Source: a bacterium SCSIO 12643
Lineage (GTDB): Bacteria > Bacteroidota > Bacteroidia > Flavobacteriales_G > Salibacteraceae
Assembly (NCBI GenBank): GCA_024398135.1
Contig: CP073750.1
Location: 806,001 to 870,000, forward strand
Direction: 5' to 3'
Length of the DNA: 64,000 bases
Below are positions 18,226 through 21,933 of the stretch, piece after piece. Under the pieces are notes generated by a model. That model made no database searches and was not told the origin of the DNA. It worked only from the letters and a program-made list of their open reading frames with translations. Position 1 is the stretch's first letter. Each line of letters opens with the position of its first letter. Made by a program: the position numbers and the translations under genes.

Positions 18226-18672
18226 TTATTCTCCAACTACTTCGAAAGTAATTGATTGCTCCACTTCTTTATGGAATTTGATTTTCGCTTCATAAGAACC
18301 TACATTCTTAATTGGCTCATTTACAATTGAGATATTTTTTCTATCCACAGCAACACCTAAGTTTGTAATTGCTTCAGCTAGTTGGATTGTATTCACAGAT
18401 CCAAAAATCTTTCCACTCTCACCAACTTTAGCACCAATCTTAATTGACATAGCTTCTAATTTCGCAGCGAAACCTTTAGCTTCTTCAACCAATTTAGCCT
18501 CTTTATGTGCTCTTTGACGTAAATTTTCTTCTCTAACTTTTTTAGCTGATTCAGTAGCCAAAATAGCTTTACCTGTAGGAATTAAGAAATTTCTTCCGTA
18601 ACCTGGTTTAACAGTTACCAAGTCATTAGTATATCCTAACCCTTCTATATTTTCTTTTAATATGATTTCCAT
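18226..18672 (-). CDS. rplI: 50S ribosomal protein bL9
   Basis: The 148-residue bL9 sits at the base of the L1 stalk and helps to hold reading frame. The N-terminal 23S-binding domain is clear (MEIILKENIEGLGYTNDLVTVKPGYGRNFLIP in outline), followed by the long connecting helix and the C-terminal domain (about 75-148). The spacing before it is unusual: only 11 bases separate it from the rpsR stop, and these bases with the stop codon form AAGGAGGT, a full Shine-Dalgarno, 6 bases before the ATG. Neither rpsR nor rpsF has one. It is the last gene of rpsF-rpsR-rplI and ends at a terminator. Confidence 0.97.
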   Translation of the reverse strand: MEIILKENIEGLGYTNDLVTVKPGYGRNFLIPTGKAILATESAKKVREENLRQRAHKEAKLVEEAKGFAAKLEAMSIKIGAKVGESGKIFGSVNTIQLAEAITNLGVAVDRKNISIVNEPIKNVGSYEAKIKFHKEVEQSITFEVVGE

Positions 18673-18685
18673 TTCTGACCTCCTT
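18673..18685 (-). promoter_or_regulatory. Canonical Shine-Dalgarno upstream of rplI
   Basis: Leftward sequence AAGGAGGTCAGAA precedes the rplI ATG. AGGAGG is a full match to the anti-Shine-Dalgarno and shares bases with the rpsR stop codon. Bacteroidota genes rarely have such sites, and I see none this good elsewhere in the window. Confidence 0.75.
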
Positions 18686-18953
18686 ATTTTAACATATCAG
18701 CTACATAAGGCATTAAAGCCAAATGACGTGCTCTTTTTACAGCAGTAGCCACTTTTCTTTGATATTTTACAGACGTCCCAGTAATTCTTCTTGGAAGTAA
18801 TTTACCTTGCTCGTTCACAAATTTTAAAAGAAACTTAGGATCTTTATAGTCAATATACTTAATCCCTGATTTCTTAAAACGACAATATTTGTCTTTCTTT
18901 ACTTCAATCGCAATTGGAGATAAATATCTGATTTCTGATGAATTTCCAGCCAT
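18684..18953 (-). CDS. rpsR: 30S ribosomal protein bS18
   Basis: An 89-residue bS18 of the 30S platform, which binds as a pair with bS6. The family core is intact: [23 protein letters not shown], then [11 protein letters not shown]. The N-terminus carries [17 protein letters not shown] with a single cysteine. In Flavobacterium ribosomes bS18, bS6 and bS21 form a pocket that holds the 3' tail of 16S rRNA and hides the anti-Shine-Dalgarno; bS18 here belongs to that lineage type. It lies 26 bases downstream of rpsF. Confidence 0.97.
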
Positions 18954-18979
18954 TTTTAATGTTTTAATAAATTAACGAA

Positions 18980-19321
18980 TTAAGCTTTTGCTTCTTTCTT
19001 TGTTCTGCGGCTTTCAGCAAATGCGATGTGATGCTTCTCCATTTTTACAGTCAAAAATCTTAAGATTCTCTCATCACGCTTAAATTCAACCTCTAATTTA
19101 CTGATCAATTCTCCTGGAGCTTCAAACTCGAATAAGTGATAAAAACCAGTTGATTTTTTCTGGATTTGATACGCCATTTTACGTAGTCCCCAGTTCTCTT
19201 GGTGGATCATTTTCGCACCATTTGCTTTCAAGTAACTCTCAAACTTGCCTACTGCTTCCTTTACCTGATCTTCAGATAAAACGGGAGTTAAAATGAAAAC
19301 AGTTTCATACCTTGTTTGCAT
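18980..19321 (-). CDS. rpsF: 30S ribosomal protein bS6
   Basis: bS6 forms a heterodimer with bS18 on the 30S platform. The start is set at 19321 ([15 protein letters not shown]), giving 113 residues, the normal family length. The frame is open for 23 more codons upstream, but those codons cross the promoter and do not resemble bS6. The RNA-binding region [24 protein letters not shown] is well kept, and the C-terminal tail is basic. It is the first gene of rpsF-rpsR-rplI, and its own promoter is 39 bases upstream. Confidence 0.97.
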
Positions 19322-19360
19322 TGTAATAAATTTAATTTTACTTCCCCAAAATTGGGTCGG

Positions 19361-19391
19361 CAAAAGTAGTTCTTTTTCGCATAAAACCAAA
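19361..19391 (-). promoter_or_regulatory. Promoter of the rpsF-rpsR-rplI operon
   Basis: Minus-strand TACTTTTG (19368-19361) matches TAnnTTTG; a TTTG (19391-19388) lies 19 bases further upstream, matching the usual -33/-7 spacing. Confidence 0.7.
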
Positions 19392-20215: not shown

Positions 20216-21933
20216 ATGGAGAATTTTATTGTTTCAGCTAGAAAATATAGGCCAACTACCTGGGAAAGCGTAGTCGGGCAAAAAGCTATTACAGAAACAT
20301 TAAAAAGTGCCATTGAAAACAATCATTTGGCTCAGGCTTTCTTACTTACCGGACCACGAGGAGTTGGTAAAACAACTACGGCCAGAATTCTAGCAAAAAC
20401 CATTAATCGGAATGATTTAGATCAGGAAGTAAATGAAGATGAAGATTTCGCTTTTAACATCTTCGAGTTAGATGCCGCATCTAATAATACAGTGGAAGAT
20501 ATTAGACAACTAATCGATCAGGTTAGAATTCCACCTCAAATAGGAAGTCATAAAGTGTATATCATTGATGAGGTTCATATGTTATCCTCTGCAGCTTTTA
20601 ATGCTTTCCTTAAAACACTAGAAGAGCCACCTGAGCATGCGATATTCATTCTGGCTACTACCGAAAAACATAAGGTGATTCCTACCATTATTTCAAGATG
20701 TCAGGTATTCGATTTTCAGCGTATAAATAATAGTGATATTGTTGGCCATCTGCATTACATTGCAAAACAGGAAAGTATTTCTGCTGAAGACGATGCATTA
20801 CATACTATAGCTCAAAAAGCAGATGGAGGAATGCGCGATGCCTTATCAATCTTTGATCAAATCGTTAGTTTTTCAGGAAATACCATTACATATAAGAATG
20901 TAATTGAGAATTTAAATATTCTGGACTTTGAATTCTATTTCAAGGTGACTGATTTAATTCTCGAACAAAACGCATCCGGAGCGCTACTCCTATTTAATCA
21001 AGTGCTTGAAAAAGGTTTTGATGGCCATAATTTTATTGTAGGAATAGCAAGTCATTTTAGAGATTTGCTTGTAGCATCTAATCCGCAAACACTTTCTTTA
21101 TTAGAAACCAGCGAAAATCTTAAAGAGCGTTATTTGTCCCAAGCCGGTAAATGTAATCCTGAATTCTTATTAGATGCTCTACAATTACTTTCTGATGTTG
21201 ACTTCAGATATAAAACCAGTAAAAACCAGCGATTGCTGGTTGAAGTCTGTTTGATGCAGCTTTCCTCTATTGGCGTGGGAAGTGAAAAAAAAAATTAAAA
21301 ACGTTTCGTGATTACCCGATATTTGTTGCTCAATTAACCAATAAATCGGCTAGTACAACAGCTGCTGTCGGAAACACAAACACATCATCCACTCCACAGA
21401 AACCAACCTCTGACATCCCTCCGTCAACACCTCCTCCTTCAGTAAGTCAAGCACCACCTAAGGTATATGCGAATCAAACTACTGCAAGAAGAAGGAAGTC
21501 TATGATTCGAATCAAACCTCAGGAATCAGAAGAAAAAGAAAAAGTCGCCAAATATTACGGTGATGAACCTTTTACTCTTGATCATCTAAAGGCTAAATGG
21601 AACATTTATACTGATAGAGTCAAAGAAATATCCGGAGGTTTTTCGGCTAGTGTTTTATCGGGTTGTGAACCTCAGATATTAGAAGATCAAAAAACAATTC
21701 ACCTGGTTTTCAGAAACGAAACCAATGAACTGGAATTTACCAGACTGTCTCTTGACTTAATCGAATTTTTAAAGGAAGAACTGAAAAACAATCATATCAA
21801 CTTCCAAACAGAGGTGAATAAGCAAAAAGCCAAGAAGGTTTTATATACCAATAAAGATAAGTTTGACCATTTTACAGAAAAATACCCGCAACTAAACGAT
21901 TGGGCCGATAAGCTTAAACTAGAGTTAAAATAA
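20216..21933 (+). CDS. dnaX: DNA polymerase III subunits tau and gamma, in two frames joined at an A10 tract
   Basis: DnaX is the ATPase of the clamp loader. The zero frame (20216-21298) codes 360 residues: Walker A GPRGVGKTTTARILAK (about 45-60), Walker B IIDEVHML, sensor 1 ATTEKHK and the arginine finger SRC, plus the collar domain III. The cysteine knuckle normally found after Walker A is replaced by an acidic loop without Cys, as in other flavobacteria. The zero frame ends ...SEKKN-stop right after ten A residues (21285-21294). The -1 frame is open from the tract to 21933 and has no start of its own; it carries a Pro/Ser/Thr-rich linker and a tau-type C-terminal domain. A -1 shift would give a protein of about 572 residues. 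The short product is gamma-sized. A sequencing indel is the alternative explanation. Confidence 0.9.
21285..21294 (+). promoter_or_regulatory. A10 slippery tract in dnaX (candidate programmed -1 frameshift or transcriptional slippage site)
   Basis: Ten consecutive A residues read GAA AAA AAA AAT TAA in the zero frame. A_AAA_AAA fits the X_XXY_YYZ form for ribosomal -1 slippage. A run of this length also allows polymerase slippage, as in Thermus dnaX; one added A gives the same result. The zero-frame stop follows one codon later. Confidence 0.65.

Follow-up and report, generated by a model that had tools for sequence, protein, structure and literature searches.

The window, a 64,000-nt stretch of bacterial DNA, contains a single dnaX gene, which extends from 20216 to 21933 on the forward strand. 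Its zero frame encodes 360 amino acids (20216-21298) and ends with GAA AAA AAA AAT TAA, in which the run of A is exactly ten nucleotides long (21285-21294). The features of the locus are as follows.

20216-21298, + strand: zero frame of dnaX, 360 aa, a gamma-length product with AAA+ ATPase, lid and collar (domain III) that ends in E-K-K-N
21283-21285, + strand: TGA of the -1 frame, its upstream limit; overlaps the first A of the tract
21285-21294, + strand: A10, putative slippage tract; at least nine A's at the same site in 212 of 258 dnaX loci
21286-21933, + strand: -1 frame, linker plus tau C-terminal domain, with 212 codons past the tract; PRK14971 match; alignment of 53
21296-21298, + strand: zero-frame stop (TAA), one nucleotide past the tract
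21481-21930, + strand: tau C-terminal region as modelled with AlphaFold2; well-predicted KH-like alpha/beta domain at about model residues 30-115

The N-terminal part of the gene encodes a DnaX clamp-loader subunit in which AAA+ ATPase, lid and collar are all present. The 360-aa product matched the Pfam families DNA_pol3_delta2, DNAX_ATPase_lid (score 59.1, cut-off 27) and DNA_pol3_gamma3 (domain III, residues 236-351; score 27.5, cut-off 24.4), as well as the NCBIfam model dnaX_nterm (TIGR02397; 388 bits, cut-off 250). The domain III match ends at residue 351, six residues short of Glu357, whose codon contains the first two A's of the tract. Gamma/tau chains of DNA polymerase III, presumably those of E. 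coli, were matched in a PDB sequence search at E 6e-54 (aligned over 4-293). NCBIfam PRK14971, which we take to be the Bacteroidota type of DnaX, was also matched, over model positions 1-364; the score of 633.8 is under the cut-off of 685 of this whole-protein model, which is what a partial product should give. The same product matched both PRK14955 (397 positions) and PRK14954 (620 positions) of NCBIfam; the former, a gamma/tau model of 397 aa, may perhaps have been built from split genes with an unannotated tau half, which is a guess. The genome is a single contig of 4.118 Mb with one full-length dnaX match to the 360-aa product, apart from which there are two partial matches, at 34% and 27% identity. 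The minus strand immediately before dnaX (18226-19390) carries small genes resembling ribosomal protein genes; from a reading of their translations we take them to be rplI, rpsR and rpsF.

From 21286 onwards the -1 frame has no stop before its own TAA at 21931-21933. Because its TGA overlaps the first A of the tract, a change of frame must fall inside the tract, and eleven A's would give a product of 572 aa (360 + 212). This frame matched positions 415-613 of the 614 positions of PRK14971 (E 7.6e-21); a tau C-terminal extension of the ordinary kind is thus encoded downstream. The list of open reading frames includes a 143-aa ORF that starts at an ATG in the -1 frame at 21502, a position occupied by Ile in both same-genus relatives (L084 and L085). 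A sequence-only reading of the locus had described a zero frame that ends after 360 residues, just past ten A's and just past the collar, followed in the -1 frame by a linker and a tau-type C-terminal domain, with a full-length product of about 572 residues, and all of this agrees with the coordinates and matches given here. It had also taken the -1 frame to be open across the tract to 21933, which is correct at the downstream end, the upstream limit being tighter than it supposed, and to have no start of its own, which has to be amended: the ATG exists, although neither same-genus relative has it.

For the tau C-terminal region, the AlphaFold2 model (mean pLDDT 88.3) suggests a KH-like fold. 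DnaA domain I headed the VIA-align comparison (Z 8.8; 80 residues aligned at 2.5 A). Next came a mitoribosome-assembly chain (8csp, Z 8.5) and then the helicase loader DciA (Z 7.8), Z scores near what common folds also reach. Foldseek gave no match to the model at E<=0.001, and E. coli tau domain V was absent among the Foldseek and VIA-align rows listed. Pfam assigned the C-terminal part of the window's gene to no family and that of its relatives only to scattered weak ones, a PDB sequence search with this part gave no match, and a profile search placed DnaA domain I at E 0.07 only. The suggested link to DnaA domain I therefore rests on the fold comparison, in which Z 8.8 is near the range of common arrangements and 8csp lies within 1 Z.

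The A tract is more than a chance feature of its surroundings. Neither strand of the window has another run of nine or more A's, and overlapping A 9-mer matches numbered 2 against 13.1 expected from shuffles. Across the 4.1 Mb genome there are 67 distinct runs of at least nine A's, nine of them of at least ten, and only at the dnaX tract does a long ORF meet a second long frame, with one of the 67, 139 nt from a contig end, being only partly testable. The next best run, an A9 at position 1353 of L230 (G000), has an open frame of 84-88 codons before it and a +1 frame that stays open for 44 codons downstream, and is a weak case.

We compared 258 non-duplicate dnaX loci across the phylum, comprising 75 split genes, 173 uninterrupted genes and 10 loci cut by contig ends; the sample is not unbiased, and closely related genomes remain in it. 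It consists of the best 80 matches of one collection, 94 of the 95 matching relatives outside the window's own genome (the omitted one ends at a contig end) and, as the remaining 84, loci taken from a draw across the phylum that had 146 matches. The draw contributed 24 new loci out of 30 returned, together with 60 that were hand-picked from its 109 matches outside the class so as to cover families, with open-frame lengths in view. Six class members of the draw are not in the set. L004 (identical to L085 over the compared stretch), five repeats, the own-genome locus L001 and the partial matches L002 and L003 were dropped.

A run of at least nine A's is found at the end of the collar in 74 of the 75 split genes, 130 of the 173 uninterrupted genes and 8 of the 10 cut loci. 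In these 212 loci the tract is A9 in 35, A10 in 157 and A11 in 20, and never longer. It starts at a median of 24 codons past query residue 335 (range 18-63), and 215 such runs occur at the site, against 6 in the 355 kb of remaining dnaX coding sequence. The tract is thus not peculiar to split genes, since about three in four of the uninterrupted ones sampled have A9-A11 there as well. What is kept is poly-A and not just poly-Lys, as 35 of 68 Lys-Lys-Lys triplets at the site in uninterrupted genes are all AAA, compared with 2 of 34 elsewhere. Outside the class, the 60 loci divide into 12 split with tract, 26 uninterrupted with tract and 22 uninterrupted without. GC-rich genes keep the tract less often (26 of 46 with N-terminal GC of at least 50%, against 186 of 212 below 50%).

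Loss of the tract is mostly complete: among the 43 uninterrupted loci without A9 or longer (e.g., L113, L034, L289), 35 have no run of even seven in the zone and 8 have A7 or A8. Given these 43 of 173 tract-less genes, gamma made by way of the tract is dispensable in part of the phylum. L113 has an A7 at this place, and its two other frames meet stops at distances of 3 and 1 codons, a pattern that suggests recent decay. In L177 (G065, a one-contig genome of 0.49 Mb), dnaX ends at 353 codons without an A tract, and no long open frame follows, the other frames having 18 and 31 codons; this is apparently a gamma-only dnaX in a strongly reduced genome.

Closer to the window, the two same-genus relatives keep A10 with TTAA directly after it, so that the zero-frame TAA is retained in genes whose synonymous sites are saturated with respect to the window (pS 0.62-0.79). 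Over the C-terminal 135 codons of the -1 frame, pN is 0.30 against pS 0.62-0.73, and the coding there is, judged from these values, under purifying selection. The alignment of close relatives had been proposed in advance as a check on the sequence-only reading, and these relatives do not have one uninterrupted frame. The same conservation disposes of the view that the true tract is A11 and the gene a single frame, broken by an assembly or sequencing error. Homopolymers are error-prone and the genome assembly is a single contig, but an error would have to recur, with the stop, in both relatives, and split genes make up 75 of the 258 loci, all except one of them split at an A9-A11 tract. We rejected this explanation and consider it extremely improbable. 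In the window's own family, 34 loci comprise 17 split, 15 uninterrupted and 2 cut ones, and A9 or A10 is present in all 34. The earlier suggestion that the flavobacterial lineage does as the window does is supported by the 17 split genes of the family, with the amendment that this is not peculiar to the lineage: the tract extends through most of the phylum sample.

Split and uninterrupted genes are alike around the tract. In all 74 split genes with tract, the zero frame stops within 8 codons of it, and in 72 of these the third (non-tau) frame stops within 9 codons. Of the 130 uninterrupted genes with tract, 114 have stops no more than 8 codons away in both alternative frames; after lysine codons elsewhere in those genes the rate is 21%. 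The tau extension has the same length in both classes (median 215 codons). The shift needed to reach it in split genes is -1 in 69 of 74 and +1 in 5, at least two of these five (L025 and L048) being metagenome assemblies.

On a tree of 248 genes, a quick one built from the N-terminal region with a simple mixture-free model, the split or uninterrupted state changes 32 times by parsimony; the number is 30 if branches with support below 80 are collapsed and 17 if those below 95 are, compared with a mean of 65 and a minimum of 58 for shuffled labels. One genus code holds both states at an unchanged A10, L335 being split and L332 uninterrupted, and their registers differ by the phase of the upstream sequence. 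These data suggest that tract and register are uncoupled: the former is retained, and the frame written in the genome moves back and forth between gamma and tau. A genome would be switched from one to the other by small indels near the tract (17 to 32 switches among the 248 genes), and slippage would yield gamma and tau from any register, so that a genome could alternate between spelling either at little cost. We lean towards extending this to Bacteroidota and its sister classes: on balance it seems fairly likely that a tract in dnaX on which RNA polymerase slips is selected there, conserved in length at 9-11 A's, with a register free to drift at little cost.

For the window itself, the A10 run very probably lets one gene make both a short and a long clamp-loader protein by slippage, and it is likely that RNA polymerase is what slips, so that both subunits would come from one dnaX gene. 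RNA polymerase slipping on A10 would produce transcripts with A runs of mixed length. On those with ten A's (also 9, 12 or 13), translation would reach a stop a few codons further on, and the product would be gamma of about 360 aa, which ends just past the collar domain; on those with eleven (also 8 or 14), the linker and C-terminal domain would be in frame and tau, 572 aa, would result. This reading is built on the anatomy of the locus, the conserved tract, stops and C-terminal coding, the lack of a second full dnaX in the genome and the repeated switching of register; from these we infer slippage in the cell, RNA polymerase rather than the ribosome as the slipping partner, and a ratio between the products. 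As the sequence-only reading had it, the locus is best explained as one programmed to give both gamma and tau, the latter being the product that depends on a shift in this genome.

The site shows what is expected of a slippage site, namely an uninterrupted run of at least nine A's and shifts in both directions among orthologues, and by a published rule such mixed directions are the sign of slippage (PMC3711429). An E. coli-type frameshift cassette is not seen, there being no 3' stem-loop stronger than control and the run being A10 followed by T rather than A_AAA_AAG. It could nevertheless be ribosomes that shift by -1, at A_AAA_AAA within the tract, all transcripts having A10; tau would then be made in an E. 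coli-like manner with the product roles exchanged. This heptamer is always contained in A10 and could contribute -1 shifting, and -1 is the direction needed by nearly all split genes. SD-like words are also mildly enriched within 18 nt upstream of the tract, in 11 of 74 split and 7 of 130 uninterrupted genes (18 of 204 together) against 2.9% in the control. Fifteen of the 18 sit 0-4 nt from the tract start, however, and an SD stimulator of -1 shifting has a larger spacing; the window has no SD-like word of the scanned set in those 18 nt. Folding of the 60 nt downstream was no stronger than the control at the 74 split loci (mean z -0.46 vs -0.36, p 0.42), nor does the window have a stem-loop beyond control (z +1.1 for the 101 nt of 21270-21370, z -1.2 for the 60 nt downstream of the tract). 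In uninterrupted genes, 13.1% of the downstream windows fold at z < -2, against 6.4% in the control, although the distributions are alike (p 0.44). The SD-like enrichment, these strongly folded windows, the small number of +1 cases and the heptamer inside every A10 count against slippage by RNA polymerase. We favour the latter because five split genes need the opposite shift (+1), downstream folding in the window and the split set does not exceed the control, runs of 9-11 are longer than the seven that ribosomes need for A_AAA_AAA, and stops guard both alternative frames in most uninterrupted tract genes, which is the Thermus slippage pattern. Ribosomal shifting as the source of tau is accordingly an unlikely explanation.

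Two further explanations were considered. A gene fission would leave gamma and a separate C-terminal protein, started at ATG 21502, which would give 143 aa, or by re-initiation after the stop. Internal initiation was rejected in the absence of a conserved start codon: the two same-genus relatives have Ile in place of this ATG, the scanned linker region holds no ATG in 32 of the 74 split genes, and ATG makes up 0.97% of linker codons there, near the 0.71% of uninterrupted genes. The equal length of the extension in both classes and the meeting of the window's two frames only inside the A run also speak against fission, which we regard as very improbable. Phase variation, with replication slippage toggling A10 and A11 between cells, could draw on the mutability of A10 tracts in DNA, but the three same-genus loci share one register, the tract is 9-11 long in every one of the 212 loci having it, and dnaX is expected to be essential; there is scarcely any likelihood of it.

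The purpose of the truncated gamma has been a matter of considerable controversy (PMC5009743, in its remarks on gamma). A tract present in 212 of 258 genes, in both registers, with stops so placed that both lengths would result from slippage, is evolutionary evidence that both products are wanted, and the 43 uninterrupted tract-less genes offer natural comparisons. Annotation may mislead here. A gene caller is expected to report only the short product in split genomes, so that such bacteria could look as if they had no tau; if the register does drift, the annotated reading frame of dnaX carries almost no functional information.

Making two products from one dnaX is known from several systems, although a 2012 review states, in its discussion of dnaX, that most bacteria keep no frameshift signature in this gene (PMC3290774). 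In E. coli the same two products are made and gamma consists of the N-terminal three domains, as in the window (PMC3290774 and PMC3711429, in the parts dealing with E. coli). The E. coli genome, as described there, spells tau and shifts to gamma at A_AAA_AAG by -1 ribosomal frameshifting, with a 3' stem-loop and an SD stimulator, whereas the window has an uninterrupted A run and a stem-loop no stronger than control, and the roles of the products are reversed. Thermus thermophilus shares with the window an A run, stops close by in the other frames and one gene giving gamma and tau (PMC1088944 and PMC5009743, in their accounts of Thermus dnaX); it differs in that its genome spells tau with a tract of A9, while that of the window spells gamma with A10. 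Shigella mxiE resembles the window in having two overlapping ORFs whose longer product depends on slippage (PMC1088944, in its summary of mxiE), but it is an unrelated regulator gene.

The closest counterpart is the two-ORF dnaX of Antonov et al. (2013; PMC3711429), a type that depends on recoding for its tau. Their GeneTack dnaX cluster, as that paper presents it, holds 17 genes from 12 genera; 12 of the 17 have a poly-A stretch, nine of these being of ten A's, slippage is predicted, and none of the 17 was annotated in RefSeq. With a short zero-frame product, a stop directly after poly-A and the tau extension in the -1 frame, the window's gene is of this type. Since tau by recoding has been in print since 2013, the gene belongs to a known class, and the reversal of the E. 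coli arrangement, which the sequence-only reading had put forward, stands as anatomy but is not new. The Antonov cluster consists entirely of split genes, and we saw no mention there of such a tract in uninterrupted genes of organisms other than Thermus. In the open-licence literature searched, we found no phylum-wide tract common to split and uninterrupted dnaX, and the uncoupling of tract and register is the part that was not found in print there. If that uncoupling is real, the gamma/tau duality would be general in this phylum and no peculiarity of E. coli and Thermus.
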